Part shown: positions 1-26,432 of the stretch, piece by piece
Position numbering within the stretch: the stretch's first letter is position 1
How the letters are laid out: the number at the start of each line of letters is the position of its first letter
Program-made: the position numbers and the translations under genes
The notes under the pieces: generated by a model
Databases searched by the model: none
Told to the model about the DNA's origin: nothing
What the model saw: the letters and a program-made list of their open reading frames with translations, nothing else
Source: a virus
Strand: one strand, 5' to 3'
IMG/VR virus record: IMGVR_UViG_3300029267_004853
Span: 1 to 26,432 of that record
DNA length: 26,432 bases

Positions 1-3000
1 CCGCTTCTTCGCTGTAGTTACCGGAAGTGTCGACCGCCTTGACGTAGAAGGTGTGCGTCCCGTTAAGGAAACCGCTCAGCGCGTACTGCCGGTTGTCCCG
101 TCCAACCGTGTCGATCTTCGTTGCGTTGTCCCAGCCGCCGGACGAGCCGGCGTGCCGCCGGATCTCGAATCCGGCAAGGTCGAGAGGTGGGGTGTCGCTA
201 TACCCCCACCGAAGGAGACCCTGCTCGAGGATCAGCCCTGTCGGGCTGGGTGGGGGTGAGGACTTCCCGATGACCAGGACACCTTCTCCGTCGCCGTCCT
301 CATGGACCCAATTACTCCCCATATTCCCGGCACCCATTGTCCGGATGCGGAACTCGTAGCGGCGACCCTGCTCGATCCTCTTGCTGATGTAGAGGCGGTC
401 CGGCTTGCCCGTGAAGGTCTCACCCTCCCCCCAGGGGCGATTCTCTATACCCTCCTCCGTCCATTCCCTCCAGTCGACATGCACCGCCTCAATGGGCGAA
501 TACATCCCCGTCTCGTACCGGAGGGCAATCACCACCTGGGGCAGAAGGTTACCGCTGGCTCGATAGAGGACGCTCTCATCGGTCTGGATCAAGACGACGA
601 CCGGCGGCGCCGGACTCATCGATCGAATCGAGGGGATGTCGCTGATCTCGGGCTCATACGAGTGGAGGATGGTCTCATCGTACATCCCAGGGGCGTATTC
701 GATCAGATGGAGTGTCGCCGTCAGGTCTTCCGCGGGTTCGATCCCATCGATCAGCCAGCGGCCGAAGAGCGTATGATTCTGAGGAGACGTCCACTTCCCC
801 CACGTGAAGAGGTCCCCCTCATTCGGCTGAGGTTGTCCGGCTGGAATGGGGACACTGAGAGCGCACTCCGTGATGAACTGCGGCGGCCCGCCGTAAGTGA
901 TTGCAGGCGTGGGGATGAATTGGTAGAACGGCTCGGTGTCCTTCGCTGACCGGATGTACAGGACGTAGTTGTCGGCATCGATCGGCAGCTCGTTGTCCAC
1001 CGTGATGGATGTAACGTCCCCCCCGACGTTCCTCGTGACAGCCTTGATCCGTCCCCGGCTCACCCCCTGAAGCGGGGCGTCCCAGGAGACGCCCACGAGG
1101 TCTCCGACCGTGCAGACCAGATTCTCGATGTCGACCTGGAGCTGAGCCTTCTCGAGCCGGAGCTGATGCTCCCGGATCTTGTACCCTGCGAGGAGCTCCA
1201 CCTGCGTCTTCCCGCAGGCCCCCCACATGTCCATCTTCTGGATGTTGGTAGCATCCTCGCTGTTCTCATCGTAGCCGTCTCGATAAACGACGATCTCGGT
1301 CTCCTGCCAGTTGTGAAGGCGCTTGCGGTAGTTGCACCGGATGCCGTGGAGAAGGGGTGGCAGACGCCGGATACTCCGGAATCCCCAAGAGTTCCGGGGG
1401 GTGAAAAGCTGAACGATGCCATCCTGTTCGCGATCGACCACTGCGCCGAACTTGCCGTCGGTTCGAACGGGCCGGGCGCGAGACACGCCGCAGACCGCCT
1501 CGATCGCCTGCTGCACGGTCCGCCGTCGGTCGAAAACGGCGTTGAACTCATACCCTTTCAAGTCCGTGTACTCGGCCCACTCTTGCAGCTGCTCGAGGTT
1601 CAGGCGATCGACGGACAAGGGATTGAAGGCCGCCGAGCCGGTGAGGATGTCGCGGTAGACCGCAGCGGGCTGCTTGCTCAGACCGTACGTCCACGTGCTT
1701 CCGTTCCAGTAGGTCAGATAGCTGTGGCCCACGCAGTTGAGTTTCGTCCAGTCGATGGATTGATAGAAGCTGCCCTCCCCGGCCCCATCCTCACTCTCTC
1801 TCTTCCATGGGATCAGGAGTGCGATCGTCGCCACATTCTTCTTCTTGATCACGTCCACCCAGGTGATCTCGTGGATCTCATCCAGGACCACGGTGTCGTG
1901 AACAACGAGCTCAGCATCCTCGGGAACATCATGGACACGATCGCTGTTGGGACCCCTCCGATATCTGATCTCCCACCTACATGGCTCCGAAAGATCGAAG
2001 GCGTCCATGAGATTGCAGCGCAGCCTGAACCAACTGATCGCGCCGCTGTTTCCAGATGGGCGGTCGGAGTGGTTCTCATGATTGAAGAACTCGGTCACGA
2101 AGAGAGTCGCGAACTCTCCCCCGCCCACGGGCCGGGCCTGGATCTCGAGCTCCAGATAGAGCGCGAACCACCTTTGCCAACGCCACTCGACTCCCAGGCC
2201 TTCGGTGTACTTGAACCAGAGCTCGAACTCATTGCACGTTTCTGTCGTCGTCCTCGAGATCCACCCTGAGTCTTCCGGGAGGTCATCCTCCACCGGATCA
2301 CCATACTGAGCGATGATGACAGACGGAGGGGAGATGCTTCGGGGCTGTTCGTTGTCGTCGTCCCCATAACGGATCTCGTACTGGCCATCCTGATCAGATG
2401 GATTCTCAGGCGTTCGCTCTGTCAGGAGATCCTCGATCGGGGTGTTGGCGATCTTGATGTCAGAGATGTGGGTGTGGCCCAGGCTGACGGAGTAGATGAG
2501 GTACACCCAGTCCCCGTCGTTGTAAGGCAGGGATCCGAACGGGGGATAGCTCAGGTGCTCACCATAGATCTTGGGAAACACCGCGAAGGGCGTGAGCTGA
2601 TTCTCCCGGTTGACGGTGGGAACCGCCGGCTCCTCCATCTGCCTCTGGTCAGGCGTGGGGGCAAACTGGTCGATCAGTACCGTTGCAGCCTTATGGCCAA
2701 TCGCTGCGCCACCGAATCTCAGCACGCTCGTGCCGATCTTGCCCAGGCCGCCGATTCTCCCAGCGAGCCAGCCTCCACCCCACCCGCCTGCAGCGAACCC
2801 ACCGACTGTCAGGGCCAACCGGAGGATGTCCTTGCCCGAGTTCTCCCCGTCCCCACCGGCGGGGAGGGCACGGATCGCCACGTCGGCCCCCGGGCCCGGG
2901 CGGAAGAGGTCCCATGCCGTTCGTGGAATCGAGTCCCCCCCCACCGACACGCCGAAGTCGAACTCCGGGCGGTCGATCTCGAGCAACCTCAGGATCTGAC

Positions 3001-3106
3001 GGACGGTGAGATTGGCGGGGACCAGGCGCTCGATCCGATGCGCGGCACCCATCTTGAAGGGGTGAAGAGCCGCGATCACGCGGCAGGTATCCCGCGTGGC
3101 GATCAT
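1..3106 (-). CDS. Tail-tip / host-specificity protein J-like (partial, runs off left edge)
   Basis: Reading the minus strand from ATG at 3106 gives an uninterrupted frame to base 1, at least 1035 codons; the stop lies outside the window. The ATG overlaps the stop of the NlpC/P60 gene (ATGA) and follows GGAGG at 8 bases. The order of regions matches lambda J-type tip proteins. There is a short N-terminal domain, a Gly/Ala-rich hydrophobic stretch (about residues 95-125), then the segment around 'VFPKIYGEHLSYPP', then 'YLIYSVSLGHTHISDIKI', which is the family's typical 'ISDIKIANTPI' region. A long tip body follows. Near residues 945-1035 is a fibronectin-III-like domain ('PTGLILEQGLLRWGYS', later 'YVKAVDTSGNYS'). 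Family knowledge: these proteins form the tail tip, bind the host receptor and close the tail tube. The C-terminal receptor-binding part is missing here. The long plus-strand frames across this gene are shadows. Confidence 0.88.
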   Translation of the reverse strand, partial: MIATRDTCRVIAALHPFKMGAAHRIERLVPANLTVRQILRLLEIDRPEFDFGVSVGGDSIPRTAWDLFRPGPGADVAIRALPAGGDGENSGKDILRLALTVGGFAAGGWGGGWLAGRIGGLGKIGTSVLRFGGAAIGHKAATVLIDQFAPTPDQRQMEEPAVPTVNRENQLTPFAVFPKIYGEHLSYPPFGSLPYNDGDWVYLIYSVSLGHTHISDIKIANTPIEDLLTERTPENPSDQDGQYEIRYGDDDNEQPRSISPPSVIIAQYGDPVEDDLPEDSGWISRTTTETCNEFELWFKYTEGLGVEWRWQRWFALYLELEIQARPVGGGEFATLFVTEFFNHENHSDRPSGNSGAISWFRLRCNLMDAFDLSEPCRWEIRYRRGPNSDRVHDVPEDAELVVHDTVVLDEIHEITWVDVIKKKNVATIALLIPWKRESEDGAGEGSFYQSIDWTKLNCVGHSYLTYWNGSTWTYGLSKQPAAVYRDILTGSAAFNPLSVDRLNLEQLQEWAEYTDLKGYEFNAVFDRRRTVQQAIEAVCGVSRARPVRTDGKFGAVVDREQDGIVQLFTPRNSWGFRSIRRLPPLLHGIRCNYRKRLHNWQETEIVVYRDGYDENSEDATNIQKMDMWGACGKTQVELLAGYKIREHQLRLEKAQLQVDIENLVCTVGDLVGVSWDAPLQGVSRGRIKAVTRNVGGDVTSITVDNELPIDADNYVLYIRSAKDTEPFYQFIPTPAITYGGPPQFITECALSVPIPAGQPQPNEGDLFTWGKWTSPQNHTLFGRWLIDGIEPAEDLTATLHLIEYAPGMYDETILHSYEPEISDIPSIRSMSPAPPVVVLIQTDESVLYRASGNLLPQVVIALRYETGMYSPIEAVHVDWREWTEEGIENRPWGEGETFTGKPDRLYISKRIEQGRRYEFRIRTMGAGNMGSNWVHEDGDGEGVLVIGKSSPPPSPTGLILEQGLLRWGYSDTPPLDLAGFEIRRHAGSSGGWDNATKIDTVGRDNRQYALSGFLNGTHTFYVKAVDTSGNYSEEA

Positions 3107-3567
3107 CCGGTCCACCTCCAGGCAGACACCAGTCGATGGGTCCACCTCGAGGTGGCGCCCCGGTACCGCTCGATGACGGTGTCCTTCCCCTTCTCCACGT
3201 GGAGCATCGTGTGCCGCGGCGTGATCACGAGACCCACGTGCCACCGCTGGTGAACAGCGGGACCGCTCGGAGATCCCGGTTGGCGGGGGGTGGGGACGCG
3301 GAAGAGGAGCACATCCAGCGGCTGCTCCGATCCGAGCTCGATCTCCTCGAAGCAGCGTCTGGCGCCAGCGGAGACTTGCTCGAGGTCGATCCTGTCCGCG
3401 GCATTCAGGTAGCCCTCGGAGAGCAGGGGCAGCTCAATGCCGAGTTCCTGGGCATAGACCAGATAGGGCACACCCCAGCAGTCGATCCCCTCGCAGTCTC
3501 GTCCTTTGCTCTTGAAAGGGATGCCCACATACCGGTCTGTCCAGCCGGGTTCCAGTTGGGTGATCAT
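3103..3567 (-). CDS. NlpC/P60 family tail-tip peptidase (lambda gpK-like)
   Basis: A 154-residue protein starting 'MITQLEPGWTDRYVGIPFK'. The NlpC/P60 fold is recognisable. 'GRDCEGIDCWG' carries the likely catalytic cysteine C30, 'RWHVGLVI' the histidine H110, and H123 is a plausible third polar residue. Family knowledge: such enzymes cut peptidoglycan stem peptides (D-glutamyl-diaminopimelate bonds), and in lambda-like phages the protein sits at the tail tip near J for assembly and cell-wall penetration. The gene overlaps both neighbours by four bases, so the three are translationally coupled. The length is that of a stand-alone NlpC domain; the JAB/MPN domain of full lambda K is absent. Confidence 0.9.
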   Translation of the reverse strand: MITQLEPGWTDRYVGIPFKSKGRDCEGIDCWGVPYLVYAQELGIELPLLSEGYLNAADRIDLEQVSAGARRCFEEIELGSEQPLDVLLFRVPTPRQPGSPSGPAVHQRWHVGLVITPRHTMLHVEKGKDTVIERYRGATSRWTHRLVSAWRWTG

Positions 3568-16585: not shown

Positions 16586-18607
16586 CTACACCTCCGGCCT
16601 GATCTGGCAGTCGCAGCCGGCGTGGAGCGGGGGGTGCCCCACGGGTCGGCGGACCCTGAGCGCCGTGCCGTCTGAGCCTGTGAAGTCACCGGGATCAACG
16701 AACGTCTCCTCGACGCCCACCACGCGGTTGTCGAGGATGTTGCAGAAGGGGCAGTTCTTGCCGATAGTGACCCACCGGAGCTTCACGATCCCCCCCATGA
16801 CGAAGACCTTCTTCGCCACCGCGTTGCTCTGCTGGACCGTCTCGCGGGTCGCGATCTTACCCGGCCGCTTCTCTTCCCACTCGTCGAAGCGCTGCCGGAG
16901 GGCGCCCGTCGGCTCTTCCTGCTTCTCGATCGCCTCGGCGAGGACCTGGCGAATCTGACCTTCAGACGAGAAGGAGTGCCGGTTGGCGTAGCCCTCGATC
17001 AGGCCTTGGACGAACGCCTGGAAGGTGGCCAGGTCCTGGTCGCCTTCTTCAGGATCAACATCGATCTCCTTCGTGGCCGCGGCGCGCACCGCCTCGGCGA
17101 AGGAGCTGATCACCGGGCCCATCTGCTTCCGGATGTACTCCCGGTGCTCCTGGTAGAACTGCTCGAGCCAGACGAGGAAGCTCTGGAGATCACGCTGGCC
17201 GAAGGCCTTCTCGGCCTGGGGTAGGATGTCGTTCCGTTCGCGCTTGACGATCCGGAGCCCCGCATTGGCGAAGACATCTCGGTAGGCTTTCGCCAGCTTC
17301 TGCCGACCGGTCGCAGCCGTGACCCGTGCCTCGAGACGCCGCATCGACCGCCGTATCTGCCTCGAGGAGCTCTCCTCCCCCGGCTCCTCCTCGAGGAGGT
17401 TCATGGCGTTCTGCTTGTTGATCGGCGCCTGGTAGATCTTGCCCTGGCCGCCCGGCTGGGGAGGCATGTTCTCCTTCCGGCGCCACTCGTCGGCGTTGAT
17501 CACCGAGTGCTCGTGGGCGATCGCCAGCGCTTCGAACCGGCTCTTGATGTCGCCCCGGAGGAGCTCGTCGACCAGGAACTCGATGAAGTGGGTCTTCTGC
17601 TCTTCCGGGGTGAAAAGCATGATGTTGACCCGTCTCTCGATCCGACGAAGCAGGATCCGAAGGCAGTAGATGACGAACTCGAGCGACTGGTGCTCGATAT
17701 TGTCGAACGTCGCCCGCTCGAGGTCGCCCAGGAGGTGCATCTGGGACATCCCGCTCCCGCGGGCGGTCTCCTGCAGCTGGTGGCGCCGGACGGCGAGAAG
17801 CTGGGCCTGCTCGGGAGTGACCCCACGGTCCTGCCACTCCATCCCATCCTCGAGCACCGCGGTCTCGTGGGCGTTGTCGAGGCCCCCGTGGGTCTTCTTC
17901 CACATCCGCTTCAGCCGCCGGCGCCCCTTCCGTCCCAGCTTCTTCGGGTGCCTCAGGAATCCACCCTGGAGCGAGCCGTCCTTGAAGATCTTCCCGGCGT
18001 AGTCCTCGGCCGCGATGCCGAGGGCGAGGGGGTTCTGGAGGAGCCAGAGCGGGTCATACGGTGTGAGACCGTTGCCCGACAGATTCGAGATGTAGAGCAC
18101 TTTGCGGAGGGGGATGTAGCGAGGGCCCCCGCGGGGAGGCGTGTATCTGTAGATCAGCTTGCCCTTCTCACCCCGCATCGCCTTCACGCGGTCGGGAGCG
18201 TAGGGCCAGAGACTCGTGACCTGGCCCTTGCCGTTCCGGTCGATCCGGGCGCAGGACTTCCCGCGGTGCATGATGTGGAAGACCGTCGTCTCCCAGAAGA
18301 TGAACGAGTCCATCTCCTCGTTCGGCTGATCATGGACGACGCGATAGGTAGGGTGATCCGGGTCGCGCTCCCGGGCTTCGGGCCCGGTGCGCCGGTAGAC
18401 GACACACGGGAGGGATGCGACAACGCCCGCCACAAGGCGGGCGATCGAGAGGAACGGAGGGTGCTGCAGGGCGCGGAGCGGTGTCACCGCGATGCCCGTC
18501 GTGGAAGCCTTGCTCCCACCGAGGAACGAGTTCAGAGTCTCATCGTCAAGATCGAGCAGACGACGAGCTACGTTGTAGTACCTTCCCAGCCGGCGAACGA
18601 TGCTCAA
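16586..18607 (-). CDS. Portal protein fused to a Mu-F / SPP1 gp7-type head morphogenesis domain
   Basis: 673 residues, starting at TTG 18607, the only usual start codon in the open frame upstream of the conserved region; the nearest GGGAG is 13 bases away, so the start is less certain. Residues 1 to about 400 are an HK97-type portal ('LRALQHPPFLSIARLVAGVV', 'HIMHRGKSCARIDRNGKG', 'GSGMSQMHLLGD'). After a charged linker (403-430), the C-terminal domain ends with 'GKNCPFCNILDNRVVG' (C619, C622) and 'GHPPLHAGCDCQIRPE' (H658, H662, C665, C667), typical of the F/gp7 domain. Family knowledge: the portal is the DNA gate and nucleates the head; gp7-like proteins bind the portal and enter the head. Normally these are separate genes. 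Confidence 0.93.
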   Translation of the reverse strand: MSIVRRLGRYYNVARRLLDLDDETLNSFLGGSKASTTGIAVTPLRALQHPPFLSIARLVAGVVASLPCVVYRRTGPEARERDPDHPTYRVVHDQPNEEMDSFIFWETTVFHIMHRGKSCARIDRNGKGQVTSLWPYAPDRVKAMRGEKGKLIYRYTPPRGGPRYIPLRKVLYISNLSGNGLTPYDPLWLLQNPLALGIAAEDYAGKIFKDGSLQGGFLRHPKKLGRKGRRRLKRMWKKTHGGLDNAHETAVLEDGMEWQDRGVTPEQAQLLAVRRHQLQETARGSGMSQMHLLGDLERATFDNIEHQSLEFVIYCLRILLRRIERRVNIMLFTPEEQKTHFIEFLVDELLRGDIKSRFEALAIAHEHSVINADEWRRKENMPPQPGGQGKIYQAPINKQNAMNLLEEEPGEESSSRQIRRSMRRLEARVTAATGRQKLAKAYRDVFANAGLRIVKRERNDILPQAEKAFGQRDLQSFLVWLEQFYQEHREYIRKQMGPVISSFAEAVRAAATKEIDVDPEEGDQDLATFQAFVQGLIEGYANRHSFSSEGQIRQVLAEAIEKQEEPTGALRQRFDEWEEKRPGKIATRETVQQSNAVAKKVFVMGGIVKLRWVTIGKNCPFCNILDNRVVGVEETFVDPGDFTGSDGTALRVRRPVGHPPLHAGCDCQIRPEV

Positions 18608-18732: not shown

Positions 18733-20460
18733 TCAGAGCGTCAGAATTCCTGCTTCTTCGTACGCGCTGTCTTCTCCGAGGTTCAACATCGCGCGCCCGC
18801 ACGCCATGATGCCGGCTGCAATCCCGTCGATCCGCTCGCGCTCATGCTCCTTGCTTGGCCTTGGGTTGCCGTTCGTATCCCACAGCAGCTCGAGGTTGTT
18901 CGCGTTCCAGCGCAGCACCTTGTGGCCACCGTGGGCCAACCGGCCGGCGCGGACGAGTGCTAGGAAGTACTTCGTGGGCTCCCCCATCGTGTAGAAGCCC
19001 TGACGCATCTGAACCATCTCGAAGCCGTCGCCGGCGAGCTGAGTCGAGAGCTGCGTTGCGTTCCAGGGATCGAATCCGATCTCCTGGATGTCGAACTCCT
19101 CGCCGTACTCGTTGATGCGCCGGCGGATGATGTCGTAGTCGATGATGGGCCCGGGCGTGAGCTCGATCAGACCCTCGTCGACCCACCTGCCGTACATCTC
19201 CCGCTCTCGCTTGGGGTACTCCTTCATCGATCCCTCAGGGAGCCAGAACTGTGGGATGAGCGGCCACATGCCGCTCTCGAGGGGCCAGACGAGGTCGAAG
19301 GCAGTGAGATCCCACTTCGAGCTAAGATCGAGGCCCCCGTAGGCGACATAGTTCCGCAGCGGCTTGCGTTTCGGGATTCGGTCGCAGGCATCCCACTGGT
19401 GCATCGGGATAGCCCGCACCTTCTGCTCGGTCCAGATGCCCAAGTCATCCCGCAGGAAGGTATTGAAGAAGCCGGGCATGGCCTCGGCCTTCTTCCGGTC
19501 CGCGCGAATGTCCTCGAGCTTGACCGTGATCCCGAGGTTCGGGTTGCCCTTTGTGTAGAGGGTCTCGTCGCGGTAGTCGTCACCCGGGTCCGGCTCGGCG
19601 ACGAAAGCGAAGAATCGATCATCTTCGACAATACCCCGGAGGACATCCTCGGCGTACTGCCTGAGCTCCCAGCAGATCCCCTCGCGGCCCGCGCCAGGGG
19701 TTGTGATGTCGAACATGAGGGGCTGCGTCCTCGAGCGCATGGAGGTCTCGATCACATCGTGGAGCTTCCGAGTCTTGTGCTTGTGGATCTCGTCCACGAT
19801 CGCGCAGTGGGTGTTGAGACCGTCAGTTGTGTCGGCGTCCGCCCCCAGGGGCTCGAACTTCGACTCGGTGGTGGCCACCGACATGTTGTCCTTCAAGATC
19901 TCGACCCGACTATTGAGATGCGGAGATCGCTTCACCATGAGCTTCGCGGCTCGATGAGAGATCCGGGCTTGGTCCTTCTTCGTCGCGGCGCTGTATACCT
20001 GGGCGGCTGCCTCCCCGTCAGCCAGGAACATGTAGTTGCCAACCACGCCCCCACCCCACACGGTCTTGCCCTGCTTCCGGGCGGTCTGGGTGTAGGAAAG
20101 CCGGAAGCGTCGGAAGCCGCCCTCCCGCATCCACCCAAAGAGGTTCCAGAGCACAAACGCCTGGAACGGACTTGGGCCGAAGGGTTCACCAGCCCCGCGG
20201 CCTTCGTAGTGCCGGAGGAACGGGCAAAAGTCCAGGACGTGCTGGGCAGCATCGGGATCGAAGTAGAGGCCTCGCCTCGATCCGGTTTCCAGATCGCGAA
20301 GGTGTCGTTCGACGGCAAGCCTCACCAACTCGCCGGTGACGATCTTCCCGCAGAGAACACCGTCAACATACTGCTCAACAGGACTCAATCCTCTATCCAC
20401 ACTGCAGAATGGCGGCAAGTGCCCCAGGATCTCAGTCGGACACCCTCCGCTCCCGCCCAC
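18733..20460 (-). CDS. terL: Terminase large subunit (HK97-like, Terminase_1)
   Basis: 575 residues if GTG at 20460 is used. The ATPase carries the P-loop region 'TQTARKQGKT' (124-133), Walker B 'CAIVDEIH' (219-226) and 'DITTPG' (251-256). The nuclease acidic residues are D378 ('GGLDLSS'), D464 ('EIGFDPWN') and D545 ('RIDGIAAG'). Family knowledge: it cuts concatemeric DNA and pumps it through the portal. The start is unclear because conserved sequence begins near residue 26 ('SPVEQYVDGVLCGKIV'). GTG 20460, TTG 20418 and GTG 20400 are candidates, and none has a good ribosome site. With GTG 20460 it overlaps the end of the HEPN gene by 29 bases. Confidence 0.95.
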   Translation of the reverse strand: MGGSGGCPTEILGHLPPFCSVDRGLSPVEQYVDGVLCGKIVTGELVRLAVERHLRDLETGSRRGLYFDPDAAQHVLDFCPFLRHYEGRGAGEPFGPSPFQAFVLWNLFGWMREGGFRRFRLSYTQTARKQGKTVWGGGVVGNYMFLADGEAAAQVYSAATKKDQARISHRAAKLMVKRSPHLNSRVEILKDNMSVATTESKFEPLGADADTTDGLNTHCAIVDEIHKHKTRKLHDVIETSMRSRTQPLMFDITTPGAGREGICWELRQYAEDVLRGIVEDDRFFAFVAEPDPGDDYRDETLYTKGNPNLGITVKLEDIRADRKKAEAMPGFFNTFLRDDLGIWTEQKVRAIPMHQWDACDRIPKRKPLRNYVAYGGLDLSSKWDLTAFDLVWPLESGMWPLIPQFWLPEGSMKEYPKREREMYGRWVDEGLIELTPGPIIDYDIIRRRINEYGEEFDIQEIGFDPWNATQLSTQLAGDGFEMVQMRQGFYTMGEPTKYFLALVRAGRLAHGGHKVLRWNANNLELLWDTNGNPRPSKEHERERIDGIAAGIMACGRAMLNLGEDSAYEEAGILTL

Positions 20461-21940
20461 GAGGCCACCGGGGCAGGAAGCGGTTGCGTAATTCGCGGTT
20501 GTGTCGAACCAGCTCCGTGCGCTCCTTCTCAGTGAACCCCATCTCCCTTAGAAAGCAAAGCTCCATCAACCCTCGCAATGCGCTCGTGAGGTCCACAAGA
20601 TTCTCATCAATCGAGCCCTCACTCGTGGGAAACCTCCCCGTATGGATGAAGGTGTTGCGCCATCGGACAATCTTCTCGGCCGTGGCCTTAGGGTCCTTGA
20701 CAAAGCGGCCGATTTCATTGCTGTTCTCGGCGAATAGCGCGCGAAGCCGATGGCGAAGTGCGAATTCGTTCAACCACATGAAGCTTGCTTCCGCCTTGGA
20801 TCGGAGGCGCATCAGACCCTCCTCAGTGACCTCCTCCCTCCACTCCCGTGGAACACCTTCCGGAATGGAAGAAAGAAGCCCTGGCACGATGGTGCTCTTG
20901 AAGAAGGCGGGGCTCAATAGCACATCGGAGTGTCGGATCTTGTGATAGGCTTCAATTGCCTGCACGAGGGAGAGAAACTGCCATTCAACCGAAGGATGTG
21001 CTCCAATCGCGGCCATGTAGAGCATATACATGGGACGGAGATCGCGCCTCGCGGTCACCCAGTGCCGAAGCAGATCGGGAAGACGCTCAACTACACTCCC
21101 ACGACTGAAGAGGAAGTCGCCTGGATGACGGCTTTGTCCAGACGGATCTGAATCCGGCGAGATGAACAAGACCCGAACCGGCACATGGTAAGCCTCTCCA
21201 TTCGCCTCTCCCTCAGGCCGGGGGCTCTCGATCCAGATGTCCAGCGGGGGGCATGGACACATCGTCGCTATCGACAGAAAGGCTTCAACGCATCGGATCT
21301 CCTCATAGAGATCATTGAACGACCGGGGTGTGTTAGTGTGGAATGATACCAGTGGCAGTTCGCGGAGTGTAATCGCTCCGTCCGCGTCGGGTCCCATGGG
21401 GTAGCTCTCGAGGTGGACTGCGAGGGTGATGGTCGAATCCTCATCGATCTCGATTGTCTCCGGCGGTATTGCCCGATAGGAGAGGTCCAAATCGACACCC
21501 CTGCCAAACTCCACGTTTATGCCCCTCATCCAGATCCAGCTGTACAGGTTCCGGTAGCGGACCGAAGCGGTCTCCAGGATCGCCTCCTCGCAGTCCGCGA
21601 AGTGAGCTCCTACAAAGGCGAGACTGGTGGAGATTCGCCAGGTTCCCACGGGACTCGGCTTTTTCTCATCAGCGGGAAGAACCATGGATCTGCCAAGAGT
21701 GAAGCAGGCGGCGAGCGTGATCTTCTCCATGTCGGTTGTCTCGCCAAAGATGACATTGGAGTCCTTGAAGTGCGCTCCGAAATCCTTAGGTGGATCCGGG
21801 ATAGTCAACTCAAGGATACCGCCTGAGTCCCGAGAGAAGGTGAGTGTTCCCGAATACTTCGTGTCGGGCTCACTTGGGGTCCACCATGCACCGTGCGCTG
21901 TCGTTCTGTCAGACAACGTGATCCAATTCCACCTGTGCAT
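20432..21940 (-). CDS. ApeA-like HEPN-domain protein (putative anti-phage ribonuclease)
   Basis: 502 residues from ATG 21940, chosen because GGAGG lies eight bases upstream. The N-terminal half resembles the ApeA N-terminal beta domain: 'GAWWTPSEP', 'SGTLTFSRDSGGILELTI', 'NVIFGETTDMEKITLAACF'. The C-terminal part is helical and of HEPN type: 'EWQFLSLVQAIEAYHKIRH', then 'IVRWRNTFIH', where R428 to H433 form the R-x4-H ribonuclease motif. Family knowledge: ApeA is a bacterial abortive-infection defence protein, and HEPN domains are metal-independent RNases. It lies between the two terminase genes, overlapping the terL frame at its end. Its base composition appears less GC-rich than its neighbours, which suggests a late insertion. 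A role in excluding other phages is inferred. Confidence 0.82.
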   Translation of the reverse strand: MHRWNWITLSDRTTAHGAWWTPSEPDTKYSGTLTFSRDSGGILELTIPDPPKDFGAHFKDSNVIFGETTDMEKITLAACFTLGRSMVLPADEKKPSPVGTWRISTSLAFVGAHFADCEEAILETASVRYRNLYSWIWMRGINVEFGRGVDLDLSYRAIPPETIEIDEDSTITLAVHLESYPMGPDADGAITLRELPLVSFHTNTPRSFNDLYEEIRCVEAFLSIATMCPCPPLDIWIESPRPEGEANGEAYHVPVRVLFISPDSDPSGQSRHPGDFLFSRGSVVERLPDLLRHWVTARRDLRPMYMLYMAAIGAHPSVEWQFLSLVQAIEAYHKIRHSDVLLSPAFFKSTIVPGLLSSIPEGVPREWREEVTEEGLMRLRSKAEASFMWLNEFALRHRLRALFAENSNEIGRFVKDPKATAEKIVRWRNTFIHTGRFPTSEGSIDENLVDLTSALRGLMELCFLREMGFTEKERTELVRHNRELRNRFLPRWPRGRERRVSD

Positions 21941-22062
21941 CTCGGTCACCTCCAAACACGCTGACCTACCCTATTCTGTCGCCGTTACCCGGTGTGAGGG
22001 TTCGATGTCCCCTGATATGGAAGCTTGATCCGGGTAGCCCTGGCTGAGAAGGAACGACAGCA

Positions 22063-22548
22063 TCAGTCACGTCGTGATGATGACTTCGTCTTCATGAAAG
22101 CCTCGAACTCATCCTCATGACGGCCCTGCGGATACGCAAGCCGAGAACGCGAACTGGGGGTGAATCCGAACTCGGCGCCCCAGGATTGCAGGAGCTTCTG
22201 GCAGGTGTTTATGATCCCAACCTCGGGGCGCTGCTGGACCGCACCGTTCGGCGTGTCGAAGGTGAGGCTGCCGGCCTCTCGCAGCTCTTCCTCGGCCTGG
22301 ACCATCCTTGAATAGGTCTGGCAGTAGCAGGCGAGCGCCACGCGATCGAATGTGGTTGCGAGGCCGAGCCGCCTCAGCTCCTTGATCTGCCGGCGCCACT
22401 CGGCGCGTGCAGCCTCATCCAGCCACTTGGGCGGGATGAGTGAACCTGCCTTGGGCTGGATCACGGAGTCCTTGGGGCTCCGCTTGCCCGGATTCCCCCG
22501 CAAGTCCTTCTGCGGAAACGGAATCGGCTTCCTACCTCGGGCCGCCAT
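22063..22548 (-). CDS. terS: Terminase small subunit (P27 family)
   Basis: 161 residues from ATG 22548. 'GRKPIPFPQKDLRGNPGKR' at the N-terminus is the P27-family opening, and the helical core 'AARAEWRRQIKELRRLGLAT' is followed by the conserved 'EFGFTPSSRSRL' near the C-terminus. Family knowledge: it recognises the packaging site in phage DNA and regulates the large subunit. Here the two subunits are separated by the HEPN gene, which is unusual. Confidence 0.92.
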   Translation of the reverse strand: MAARGRKPIPFPQKDLRGNPGKRSPKDSVIQPKAGSLIPPKWLDEAARAEWRRQIKELRRLGLATTFDRVALACYCQTYSRMVQAEEELREAGSLTFDTPNGAVQQRPEVGIINTCQKLLQSWGAEFGFTPSSRSRLAYPQGRHEDEFEAFMKTKSSSRRD

Positions 22549-22616: not shown

Positions 22617-23132
22617 TCACCTAGAGATTGACACCCCCATACCCCCTCGCCGGCGCCGGCGCCGGCGCAACCGGATCTGATCCTCCCAGGGCCCCCACCG
22701 TTCAATATGCCACGCGGTCCAGCCCTGCCGGTCCCGCGCGGTCTTCTCCTTGTGACATTCGTCGGACAGCGACTGGTAGTTCTCGTCGTTGTCTGTTCCA
22801 CCCATCGACTTCGGCACGATGTGATCGACCGTGACCGCAGCCTCGGGGCGCCGCCCCATCCTCAAGCACTCCTCACACAGCGGATCGCGGTTGAGCTTGC
22901 TCCCCTTCCTCGCTCGCCAGTCGCTGCCATACCCGCGCGCTGCGGTCTTCCCTCTTCTCTCATCCTCTCGGCGCCACCGCCCTCGTGTGTGCTGCGGGCA
23001 GTAGGGATCCTGTCCCATCTCCACCAGGGCCGGACACCCCGGATGTCGGCACGGTTTCTTCGGCAGCCTCTTCTGCAGCGTCCTTCCTCCAGTCCATCTA
23101 CCCTGAGAGGCATCGAACTCGTGCCTTGGCAT
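22617..23132 (-). CDS. HNH endonuclease of the packaging module
   Basis: 171 residues from ATG 23132, with GGAAG four bases upstream; its start overlaps the end of the preceding gene by 35 bases. A first Cys/His cluster (C28, C33, C45, H48) precedes the HNH core: 'CEEC' (C86, C89), 'VDHIVPKSMGG' with D103/H104, N118, and 'ECHKEKTARD' with C126/H127. Family knowledge: HNH proteins beside terminase genes, such as HK97 gp74, assist terminase in cutting cos DNA, which hints at cos-type packaging here. The C-terminus is an arginine run (156-162) encoded by a GCCGGC-type microsatellite near 22650-22675. Confidence 0.92.
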   Translation of the reverse strand: MPRHEFDASQGRWTGGRTLQKRLPKKPCRHPGCPALVEMGQDPYCPQHTRGRWRREDERRGKTAARGYGSDWRARKGSKLNRDPLCEECLRMGRRPEAAVTVDHIVPKSMGGTDNDENYQSLSDECHKEKTARDRQGWTAWHIERWGPWEDQIRLRRRRRRRGGMGVSISR

Positions 23133-23673
23133 ATGCTTCCATCAGTGCTGACCATCGACCCTCCAGGGCGCCCAACACGTTATCGCATCCGCGGCGTGCC
23201 TCCTTACGTCCGATTTTGCCGTCGCAGAACGTCGACAAGACTGCCAGCAGGGAAGTGTATGCACTGCACGGCTGCCCTTGCGCGATCTGCTGGGCAAGCC
23301 AGGAGGTGTCCACACTCACATTGAAGTATCTCCACGTACACTCCAGGAACTGATGAGCCTCGCTGGGCCACGACCCTCCCATGCTCCTCGAATGAGCCTG
23401 AAGCACTCGCGCCAAAGCCGTGACCTTCTTGCGCAGAGGGTCGAGCTCGGTCTTCACTCTGTACGCTCTTGAATAGACCTCGTTGTTGGGCAGATCAGGG
23501 TCAACGAGCATGTCCCTGATACTCATAATCCCCTGTCTGTAGTCACCATCGATTGCCGTGAGATCACTGAAGATCGGATCGATGTAGTCCTCGAAGATGC
23601 GTCTCTTCCTCTCCCGGTTCAGCTCAAACAACGCCACTAGCTTCGTTAGCACAGCGAGGAGGACGTCAATCAT
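23098..23673 (-). CDS. Helical protein of unknown function
   Basis: 191 residues from ATG 23673 with a GGAGATAGGG purine stretch upstream. I do not recognise the family. The N-terminus has a short hydrophobic helix ('MIDVLLAVLTKLVALFELN'), then a long helical part ('DYIDPIFSDLTAIDGDYRQG') of a type I have seen in unnamed bacterial proteins. No catalytic motif stands out. It ends inside the start of the HNH gene, so the two may be co-translated. Less GC-rich than the structural genes. It could be an accessory (host-interaction) gene. Confidence 0.7.
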   Translation of the reverse strand: MIDVLLAVLTKLVALFELNRERKRRIFEDYIDPIFSDLTAIDGDYRQGIMSIRDMLVDPDLPNNEVYSRAYRVKTELDPLRKKVTALARVLQAHSRSMGGSWPSEAHQFLECTWRYFNVSVDTSWLAQQIAQGQPCSAYTSLLAVLSTFCDGKIGRKEARRGCDNVLGALEGRWSALMEAYAKARVRCLSG

Positions 23674-23805
23674 CTTTCCCTATCTCCGTCAACCTATGGG
23701 GTGCCCTAGAAAGGCCCCCAACTTACTACCCTGTGCGCGAAGCTGCCCGCGCGGTCTAGGGTCTCCGGCCTCCTAGAAAACACACCCCCCCTACCCCCAT
23801 CGCTC
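23674..23805. other. Gene-free gap with nested inverted repeats
   Basis: CCCTAGA (23704-23710) and TCTAGGG (23755-23761) flank an inner stem GCGCG (23735-23739)/CGCGC (23748-23752). On the minus strand, TTGACG lies shortly before the next gene, too close to serve as its -35 box. I see no convincing promoter or terminator. Confidence 0.35.
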
Positions 23806-24492
23806 TTAGTCTCCTGTCTCGATCGACCGGGAGCCTCGGCGGGGCTCGATATCCTCAGGGCGCGAACTGTCCTCTACACCCAACATCTTCCTCATTTCGT
23901 GGACAATGCGCACCTGAAGGTGACTCACCTTCAGACTGTCCTCTGCCCAACTCTGCAGGACCCAATCGCGGACCCCGTCTAGTCCTCCTGGAGGATCGAG
24001 TTCCTTCGCGAGGTTGTAGACGCTGGGGCGAAGAAGAATGGGGATGAGCTCAAGGACAAGCCCCACGAATTCCGGGCTGAAGTAGAGCTGGTGCTCCTCG
24101 AAGAAAGCATTCAACTCCGTTGCCGCACGCAGCTCGGGCACATCTCCACCGGTGTGGCGCCACAGCGTCATCGCTAGGCCCGTCTCGCTTATGGCAGCGT
24201 GCAGAAGTCTGTCGAGCTTCCCAATCACCATTGCGCGTGTCTCATGTAGCGATGCCTCCCGGATTGTTTTCTGACTTGACCGGACCCGGAGCTCTTCCCG
24301 AAACTCCTCTAGCTCCTTCGCGAAGTTCGTCTTCACAGACTCCACCGTCTTGGTAATGTCGCCAATGTCCTCCTTGGTGGCGAGGTTCTTCCCCTTCTCC
24401 TCTGCATACGACCTGAACTGGCGGTAGACCAGTCCGATCACGAGCAGCCCAAGAAGAATGATCCCCTGCCCGATCAGAATCCACGTATCCAT
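23806..24492 (-). CDS. Single-pass membrane protein with coiled coil, unknown function
   Basis: 228 residues from ATG 24492, with GAGGT just upstream and eight bases after the previous stop. The N-terminus 'WILIGQGIILLGLLVIGLVY' is one membrane helix (about residues 4-23). A charged coiled coil follows: 'EKGKNLATKEDIGDITKTVE' and 'KTNFAKELEEFREELRV'. The motif 'KGKNLATKEDI' recurs in unnamed proteins of many bacteria. The C-terminal half is a helical soluble domain facing, most likely, the cytoplasm. No function is known to me. The close spacing suggests that it works with the 270-residue protein encoded just upstream. Confidence 0.75.
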   Translation of the reverse strand: MDTWILIGQGIILLGLLVIGLVYRQFRSYAEEKGKNLATKEDIGDITKTVESVKTNFAKELEEFREELRVRSSQKTIREASLHETRAMVIGKLDRLLHAAISETGLAMTLWRHTGGDVPELRAATELNAFFEEHQLYFSPEFVGLVLELIPILLRPSVYNLAKELDPPGGLDGVRDWVLQSWAEDSLKVSHLQVRIVHEMRKMLGVEDSSRPEDIEPRRGSRSIETGD

Positions 24493-24500
24493 TGCCTACC

Positions 24501-25313
24501 TCACTCGCGCGCGCCTGCCGACGCGGGTGCCCGCATCGCGGGTCCAGACCGAGGCGTTTCCGGCAACCCGAACTTCGATTGGAGATAGCGCTTCGTTCCG
24601 TCCAGGGTCTTCGGATCCATCTTCCCGACTGCAGACGCGAGCATTCTCACAAGCGGCTCGGCGTCGGCCTGTAGAGCATTCAGTTCTCTCTTCTTATCCT
24701 TGATGTTTGCACTCCTGCTCTCGGTCCCCACAACGAAGTAGTGGCCCTCAACGTCATTCCACGGGAACTCACGATTCACGCCAAAGATGCCAGCGTCTGG
24801 CTGCACCGGCGTGAGGCCCTTGGATTCCTCCAGAGTCCGGAAAAATGCTCTCTCCGCGCGGTCAGCGAGCCGAGCGAGTAGCGGGTCGGGCAGACTTGTG
24901 AAGAGACTCAGCACTGCCGAGCTCCTGAGATTGGCGATCACACCCGCTCTGAAGATGAGGTGCACTACATGCCGAGGGATAACCACTGCCCAATGGGGAT
25001 AGAGCTTCTGGCGGAGTTCGCCGGGGGCACTCCTTCGCAGTTTGTTGGCGCACCACATGATGCAATCTGGTAGTCGGCCCAACTCATCCTCAAGAGCCGG
25101 CCTGAATGCGCTGCTTGCGACAGCCTTTGCCACGTCTTTGAAGACACTGGCTCTCGCGCGCGCCTCTCCACGGAATTGAGGGACCTTCATGCCCTTCATC
25201 CGTTCGGCCAATACATCGACGCCCTTGCCCAGGAACCATTCATCCAGGTCGCCCTTCTCAAGCACTTGACCTGCAATCTTCAGACCCGTGCCGACCCACT
25301 TCATCGTCCCCAT
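24501..25313 (-). CDS. Protein of unknown function, co-transcribed with a membrane protein
   Basis: 270 residues from ATG 25313, preceded by GGGAGGGG eight bases upstream; a TTG seven codons earlier lacks such a site. No recognised domain. The N-terminal part is Gly/Lys-rich ('MGTMKWVGTGLKIAGQVLEK'). The middle is helical with 'LPDCIMWCANKLRRSAPGEL'. A later segment 'VEGHYFVVGTESRSANIKDK' may be a small beta unit. It lies immediately downstream of the TCATGACGCT repeat array, so it is the gene most likely to be controlled by it. Confidence 0.72.
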   Translation of the reverse strand: MGTMKWVGTGLKIAGQVLEKGDLDEWFLGKGVDVLAERMKGMKVPQFRGEARARASVFKDVAKAVASSAFRPALEDELGRLPDCIMWCANKLRRSAPGELRQKLYPHWAVVIPRHVVHLIFRAGVIANLRSSAVLSLFTSLPDPLLARLADRAERAFFRTLEESKGLTPVQPDAGIFGVNREFPWNDVEGHYFVVGTESRSANIKDKKRELNALQADAEPLVRMLASAVGKMDPKTLDGTKRYLQSKFGLPETPRSGPAMRAPASAGARE

Positions 25314-25603
25314 GGCTTCGTCCCCTCCCGCCAACGCTCGGAATCATGACGCTCTTGACAAATCGGCGCCCAGAAATCATGACGCTTACGCCCAAAAGCG
25401 TCATGGATATGCACCCTCAACCGCCTCTCTCAGCAGAAGCGTCATGATTTTCGCCGTTGTTTTCATGACGCTTTTCACGCGCCCTTCTCGGGGTGCGGCG
25501 ACTCGCCTCTTCGCGCCTGGGTGCGTGCCAGGTGCTGAAGCCGAGCCAGCAGAGCCTGATGGAGCTGCTCGGTCACTGCAGATCGGCTTTGCTGGCAGCA
25601 TCA
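25314..25603. repeat. Intergenic region with five TCATGACGCT repeats (25344-25472)
   Basis: Copies lie at 25344-25353 (+), 25377-25386 (+), 25397-25406 (inverted, one mismatch), 25438-25447 (inverted) and 25463-25472 (+). Copies 2 and 3 can form a 10-bp stem with an 8-base loop; copies 4 and 5 form an 11-bp inverted repeat with a 15-base spacer. Most centre-to-centre distances (33, 20, 41, 25) are near multiples of a helical turn. This suggests a multi-site operator upstream of the gene starting at 25313. A 68-codon minus-strand frame (25401-25607, GTG start overlapping the previous stop, GGGAGG upstream) crosses the array; I doubt that it is a gene. Confidence 0.75.
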
Positions 25604-26260
25604 TCACGGAGCCTCCCAGACAACATGCTTCTCCCGGTCAAACATCACAATGGACGCTGTCGATCGTTTTGTAGTCGTTCCGGTGCTCGGGGTGACCAGC
25701 TCAGTCCCGCCAACTGCAATTGAATAACCCTGCGAGCCTTCTAAACACAACTGCGTTCGGCCAGCGTAGTCGCTGCCTAGGGTTGTATGCGAGTTGACCA
25801 TCCCATCTGTCTGCAGCTCCAAGGACGTCATGATCGACGATGCCCACAGCTCCACTCTCCCTTTGCAGCTGTCACCGCGCACCTCGTCATCCGAGCGAAG
25901 TGTTAAAGCCGACCGGGCTGATTGGGCCGAGAGACTCGCCCACACTCCGCCGTGGTCGTCGCGAAAGAACAGACCCACACCCACCTCATATGCACGGAGG
26001 ATAACCCGCTCATTCCCCTTGTGGTCGTGCAGCACAAGCGACGCGGCTCCATCTGCCACGCCGTCGAGGACCGCCCGTGTCGTCCCCGCTTCGTCCACAA
26101 TCACGAGGCGGCGAGCCCGAAGCTCGTCCCACACTTTCTCCCCGGGAGATTGCCCCATTAAGGCTAGGCAGCTCACGGCAGCCAGGACCAGGATTCCCCC
26201 GCGCTTCAGGGTTCGGTTCTGCCCCTCCAACTTCTCCAGCCGCCTCTCAAGCGTGTCCAT
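25604..26260 (-). CDS. Membrane-anchored beta-rich protein, unknown function
   Basis: 218 residues from ATG 26260, preceded by GGGAGGGG; an upstream in-frame extension lacks a ribosome site. The N-terminus 'MDTLERRLEKLEGQNRTLKR' is a short coiled coil, followed by a membrane helix 'GGILVLAAVSCLALMG'. Beyond it are short repeats of the kind 'RLVIVDEAGTTRAVLDG' and 'ASLVLHDHKGNERVILRA', likely a beta-solenoid or beta-sandwich. Similar unnamed proteins with 'LVLVDxxGxxRAxL' repeats occur in varied bacteria and phages. It probably sits in the membrane with the C-terminal part exposed. Function unknown. Confidence 0.72.
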   Translation of the reverse strand: MDTLERRLEKLEGQNRTLKRGGILVLAAVSCLALMGQSPGEKVWDELRARRLVIVDEAGTTRAVLDGVADGAASLVLHDHKGNERVILRAYEVGVGLFFRDDHGGVWASLSAQSARSALTLRSDDEVRGDSCKGRVELWASSIMTSLELQTDGMVNSHTTLGSDYAGRTQLCLEGSQGYSIAVGGTELVTPSTGTTTKRSTASIVMFDREKHVVWEAP

Positions 26261-26432
26261 TCCGTTCCCCTCCCGGTATGTGTGTGCGGTCCGGCTCATG
26301 CGTTGGGAAGTCCATGGCGTCGTGGCTAGGTCGCTATCGTCAACAGGCTTCCCCCGGAGGATCCCAGAATCCAAACTATTGCGTCAACCATACAAGCGCG
26401 CCTGCTCGGGTCGTCTTTGTCGCTGAACAGCC

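Follow-up and report, generated by a model that had tools for sequence, protein, structure and literature searches.

A divergent ApeA-like HEPN protein encoded between the terminase genes of a virus contig

A gene for a 502-residue ApeA-like protein lies between the small and large terminase genes (terS and terL) of an IMG/VR virus record. The window analysed here is the whole of that record, 26,432 bases in length, and all of its listed genes lie on the minus strand. ApeA-type proteins are bacterial defence genes, the anti-phage activity of the family being taken here from citations; here, a gene of this type sits within the packaging region of a virus. Its product is a diverged representative of the known ApeA family, in an unusual location. 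We favour, with moderate confidence, the reading that it is an ApeA / PDC-S58 member acting as an infection-triggered HEPN RNase, carried as cargo at the terS-terL junction and kept for blocking competitors.

The terS-terL junction and its neighbourhood

Four accessory ORFs, an HNH endonuclease gene, terS, the apeA-like gene, terL, the portal gene and the head protease gene follow one another on the minus strand. Genes for the major capsid protein, connector and tail proteins, the tape measure and the central tail fibre come after them on the same strand. The features around the junction are as follows:

22617..23132, minus strand: HNH endonuclease, upstream of terS (Pfam HNH, 5.7e-10; phrog_144, 3e-30)
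22063..22548, minus strand: terS, small terminase (Pfam Terminase_4, 1.4e-24; phrog_83, 2e-41)
21946..21953, minus strand: Shine-Dalgarno sequence GGAGGTGA, identified from the sequence, with a spacer of 5 nt to the apeA-like ATG
20432..21940, minus strand: apeA-like gene, 502 aa, with ApeA_NTD1 and an Apea-like HEPN domain (Pfam, PADLOC)
18733..20460, minus strand: terL, large terminase (TerL_nuclease, 8e-46; TerL_ATPase, 4e-34; phrog_9, 2e-156)
16586..18607, minus strand: portal protein, directly after terL (Pfam Phage_portal, 1e-79)

The length of 502 aa is counted from the ATG; the program-made ORF begins at a TTG five codons earlier. The original prediction had given the gene a strong ribosome site of its own, and GGAGGTGA, 5 nt upstream of the ATG, bears this out. 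The gap between terS and the apeA-like gene is 122 nt. On the other side, homology to terL begins near 20395, approximately 40 nt past the apeA-like stop codon, and the longest terL ORF overlaps the apeA-like gene by 29 nt. No sigma-70-like promoter was found in a scan around the apeA-like gene, nor any terminator-like site on its strand; host signals may differ from those scanned for, and the result weighs little. Promoter and terminator predictions were rarer than in shuffled sequences. Folding of the 122-nt gap was no better than that of shuffles (z = +1.24), giving no sign of a structured RNA. The apeA-like gene may be transcribed together with the packaging genes, as its shared strand, its spacing and the close junction to terL suggest.

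TerL relatives were taken from IMG/VR to compare this junction between phages. TerS was recognised upstream in 77 of the 88 loci examined, and in 74 of the 77 the end of TerS lay within approximately 214 bp of the TerL match, against approximately 1.67 kb in the window. The claim that terS and terL are normally adjacent, and that the apeA-like gene is inserted at a normally tight junction, is therefore supported. Larger gaps were found in three relatives, which is a lower bound, the 11 loci without a recognised TerS having contig ends or unlike neighbours:

L155:517-1381: gap of 861 bp, N6/N4 methyltransferase
L156:1961-3944: gap of 2,040 bp, C5 methyltransferase
L165:823-3961: gap of 3,178 bp, AdoMet synthetase-like gene (N-terminal-like) and a ParB-methyltransferase fusion

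Because these three relatives hold methyltransferase or AdoMet synthetase-like inserts, the terS-terL junction is an occasional cargo site. Their cargo could shield phage DNA from host restriction, and phage weapons and shields may be sought at this junction.

The position of the gene also bears on a different role, in which the protein would be a late lytic-cycle RNase whose cuts in host or early phage RNA promote late functions, with no action against competitors. It shares its strand with the packaging genes and lies some 40 nt from the terL homology, and the scan showed neither a sigma-70-like promoter nor a same-strand terminator separating the two. However, the junction is closed and lacks the gene in 74 of 77 relatives, family members elsewhere are found on plasmids, on chromosomes and beside restriction-modification (R-M) genes, and indiscriminate cleavage would also halt the late translation of the phage itself. 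We regard this role as quite unlikely.

Further observations were made on the neighbouring genes. The four accessory ORFs (23098-26374, minus strand) have no significant match in Pfam, PHROGs or NCBIfam; one of them has a membrane-helix-like start followed by a charged, coiled-coil-like region. The proteins scanned from this possibly incomplete contig of 26 kb included no recognisable integrase or repressor, and no inhibitor or self-protection gene for the apeA-like protein was recognised in it. By their position, the four upstream accessory ORFs are candidates for a self-protection role. The portal protein has 673 aa, the last 290 or so of which fall outside the Pfam portal match; by eye, a C-terminal Cys/His-rich stretch recalls head proteins of the Mu gpF type, a domain that Pfam does not show there. 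As homology to central tail fibre J (window 2-3244, minus strand) continues right to the edge of the contig, the record is probably truncated at the tail-fibre end.

Family membership, active-site motif and structure models

The domains were assigned by profile searches and the motifs examined in an alignment of homologues:

21059..21895, minus strand: ApeA N-terminal domain 1, residues 16-294 (PF18862), mostly beta in the model
20525..20974, minus strand: Apea-like HEPN domain, residues 323-472 (PF18739), all helical in the models
20951..20953, minus strand: E330, which with K334 forms the second HEPN motif, Ex3[KR] (alignment)
20642..20659, minus strand: R428-N-T-F-I-H433, the HEPN R-x4-H motif (sequence, homologue alignment)

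Both Pfam domains scored far above their curated cut-offs, ApeA_NTD1 at 3.1e-35 (122.4 bits against 25.5) and HEPN_Apea at 6.9e-16 (59.4 bits against 24.4). The best PADLOC match was PDC-S58 (model PDLC05048, 3.1e-50), which was covered from position 5 to 444 of 461 and spanned residues 14-482 of the 502. The PADLOC Cas13-ApeA models, which are HEPN-only, matched at 3.2e-22. Eight relatives matched the same PADLOC models more strongly, the window protein being the weakest of the nine scanned. An E. coli relative, which is not known to be the experimentally tested ApeA, is present in NZ_LR778147. No PHROGs or NCBIfam model matched the protein, and no relative was found in the PDB by sequence, either with the single protein or with a 50-row profile as query. 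With the Pfam and PADLOC profiles and an invariant R, N and H, the original assignment of an ApeA-like N-terminal domain joined to a HEPN domain stands, and membership of the ApeA/HEPN family is supported at the level of sequence. Two Pfam domains far above cut-off, together with a second contig described below, indicate that the ORF is not a chance one.

Homologues were drawn from plasmids, IMG/VR and 62 genome contigs of many phyla. R428 and H433 are at the positions predicted (R-N-T-F-I-H, bases 20659-20642), and R428, N429 and H433 are conserved without exception across the 50 aligned homologues, each only 17-25% identical to the window protein. R-x4-H was present in 60 of the 62 genome loci, and in the two exceptions the extracted ORFs were short (158 and 314 aa). 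Retention of the motif, on which the prediction had depended, was thus judged on distant homologues; apart from one twin contig, the collections contained no close homologue of the apeA-like protein, and TerS as a single-protein query likewise found only the twin. The pattern used to fetch the genome loci spanned FL..Q..E, outside R-x4-H, and therefore the invariance of R, N and H among these loci is no artefact of the search. The invariance of F322, L323, Q327 and E330 is partly produced by that pattern; E330 is invariant in 50 of 50, but its column sits within it. HEPN domains have been defined by Rx4-6H with a polar residue after the R, and by Ex3[KR] as a further motif (PMC3710099); the window protein has R428-N429-x3-H433.

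The window protein is nonetheless divergent. The residue before H433 is I432, where 46 of 50 homologues have T, and the branch leading to the protein is among the longest of the tree, at 2.39 changes per column. A long branch together with I in place of T suggests that its substrate or trigger may have shifted. Its partner in the tree was a cyanobacterial sequence (L031), a pairing which we distrust as long-branch joining only.

Divergence of this kind could also be read as that of a counter-defence decoy, a protein that binds host ApeA or its trigger and blocks it. HEPN proteins work as homodimers (PMC13405049), and strong divergence with I432 before H433 agrees with such a role. In a decoy, loss of R or H would be expected, but all catalytic residues are kept here, which makes the decoy improbable.

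In the AlphaFold2 model (pLDDT 83.6, pTM 0.84) the N-terminal half is beta-rich and the C-terminal half helical. R428-H433 lies at the C-terminal end of helix 417-434, matching the location that Anantharaman et al. give for the motif in HEPN domains (PMC3710099). The C-terminal, HEPN part was all helical when modelled (pLDDT 85), and Foldseek gave it no PDB match better than E = 1.5. The structural comparison proposed with the original prediction thus returned no significant match, so the assignment of the HEPN fold comes from profile and motif.

With the full model as query, many of the top Foldseek matches were Hcp or phage tail-tube beta barrels, covering part of the N-terminal domain (E approximately 0.01-0.05, TM by target up to 0.58, approximately 10% identity). 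Homology of the N-terminal domain to Hcp or tail tube was not accepted, as an FMN-binding protein scores alike; if true, the resemblance would bear on what this domain senses.

Composition, origin and relatives elsewhere

The GC content of the apeA-like gene is 57.3%, compared with 62-65% for the structural genes, and its GC3 is 0.681 where the codon usage of the structural genes would give 0.835 (z = -9.5). The accessory ORFs at 23098-26374 are as low, with GC3 of 0.69-0.72, and the codon distance of the apeA-like gene is 0.61 to these ORFs and 1.13 to the structural genes. The gene had been described as less GC-rich than its neighbours; this is correct for the packaging and structural genes but not for the upstream accessory ORFs. 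A foreign codon usage shared with the accessory ORFs fits acquisition by the same route. No long flanking repeat was found as an insertion footprint. One imperfect 15-nt pair (13/15; 20421-20435 and 22177-22191, the second within terS) was set aside, since chance can give such a pair.

A second IMG/VR contig has the same arrangement, with one mismatch in 14,846 bp (99.99%) and an identical apeA-like protein. It is the same or a near-identical virus, and extends approximately 1.9 kb past the end of the window opposite the tail fibre. This contig bears on whether the arrangement is an assembly artefact, a host gene joined to a phage contig, as a metagenomic-type record and a composition unlike that of the packaging genes might suggest. 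Against an artefact, the twin spans the whole arrangement (the samples are possibly related and their independence incomplete), and terL and terS flank the apeA-like gene within tens to 122 bases. Such an artefact is extremely improbable.

The foreign codon usage would equally suit passing cargo, that is, a recent acquisition from a host, heading for loss and having no selected function. Only one virus lineage carries the gene at the terS-terL site, with no close relative for selection analysis. This alternative we hold to be unlikely, given an open frame of 502 codons, an intact motif, a strong ribosome site and a protein that is identical in two contigs.

A tblastn search of 50,697 phage records, in which the queries were the window protein and three further family members, gave no relative. 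In IMG/VR, pattern-based scans turned up roughly a dozen records with ApeA relatives besides the twin contig, so that ApeA relatives are rare in phages. None of the apeA relatives found, twin contig aside, shares the location between terS and terL. Several of those from IMG/VR are extra genes at structural modules:

L022: ApeA relative after the baseplate hub gene
L021: ApeA relative beside tail genes, opposite strand
L026: ApeA relative between the tape-measure and head regions, opposite strand
L025: ApeA relative upstream of scaffold and coat
L028:6513-12733 (= L089), Lysinibacillus halotolerans prophage: integrase, apeA, HNH, terS, terL, portal

A further IMG/VR locus (L178:6829-11420) has its ApeA relative inside a type I R-M operon, between the specificity gene and hsdR; a DUF3800 gene is also present. 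This agrees with the remark that the ApeA-type HEPN family occurs in R-M operons (PMC3710099). Plasmid-borne relatives were found near toxin-antitoxin or restriction genes.

Proposed function and comparison with known systems

In the function that we propose, the beta-rich N-terminal domain probably senses an infection signal. The HEPN domain, once activated and dimerised, would cut RNA through R428 and H433, and this cutting would stop translation in the infected cell. The gene was probably picked up as cargo between terS and terL, may share an upstream promoter with the packaging genes, and would be kept because competing phages are blocked in a cell carrying this phage. The trigger would not be supplied by the phage's own cycle, or would be supplied too late to matter. 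The only lead to a trigger is a 2026 preprint, cited in PMC13405049, which to judge from its title concerns deoxydinucleotides and ApeA. If this lead applies, breakdown of host DNA by an infecting phage would activate the protein, and a phage that leaves host DNA intact would be spared.

The cargo and defence reading draws on the relatives, which sit by R-M or toxin-antitoxin genes and at structural modules, and on the foreign codon usage. Defence is further indicated by the PADLOC defence-candidate models, which cover nearly the whole protein, by an R, N and H that are invariant despite 17-25% identity, by a modelled position of the motif, at the end of a helix, that agrees with the HEPN description (PMC3710099), and by the precedent of Tha, a prophage-encoded anti-phage HEPN ribonuclease (PMC11087260). 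Against it stand the long branch, the I before H433 and the HEPN part's lack of a match in the fold search, as well as the lack of a lysogeny gene among the scanned proteins and of a self-protection gene. A narrower form of the proposal, which we consider rather unlikely, is that an RNase tied to the packaging operon accumulates only after commitment to assembly, as a late lock against co-infecting phages that supply the trigger. DNA degradation or replication by the co-infecting phages would then set off the protein, which the phage's own late stage would not do. The original prediction had offered late action against competing phages, or prophage-borne exclusion that spares its own phage, as possible functions, and both stay at the level of hypothesis. 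Should the gene be functional, it would be well suited to testing how a phage withstands an infection-triggered RNase that it encodes itself.

Of the closest known systems, PDC-S58 (PDLC05048 / PDLC05046) gives a nearly full-length match, and the phage and chromosomal relatives tested match the same models. Compared with these relatives, the window protein is approximately 22% identical, has the weakest score and is encoded among phage packaging genes. ApeA (Gao et al. 2020), compared through profiles only, has in common with it both ApeA-named Pfam domains, R-x4-H and the Cas13-ApeA match to the HEPN part; ApeA is known as a bacterial defence gene, whereas the window copy lies in a phage late module.

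Tha-1 and Tha-2 of Staphylococcus aureus prophages are likewise phage-encoded, single-gene HEPN proteins with R-x4-H (PMC11087260). During the lytic cycle the phage encoding Tha turns off this anti-phage ribonuclease, which has 301 aa and no discernible N-terminal domain, lies in the cI operon and has a known inhibitor gene, ith (PMC11087260). Unlike Tha, the window protein has 502 aa and an ApeA N-terminal domain, is encoded between terS and terL, and has no recognised inhibitor. In the Lysinibacillus halotolerans prophage (L028 / L089) an ApeA relative adjoins a same-strand TerL_ATPase / Terminase_4 module accompanied by an HNH gene. That relative is upstream of HNH-terS-terL, not between terS and terL, and belongs to a different ApeA branch; it represents an ApeA lineage, distinct from that of the window, beside another set of packaging genes.
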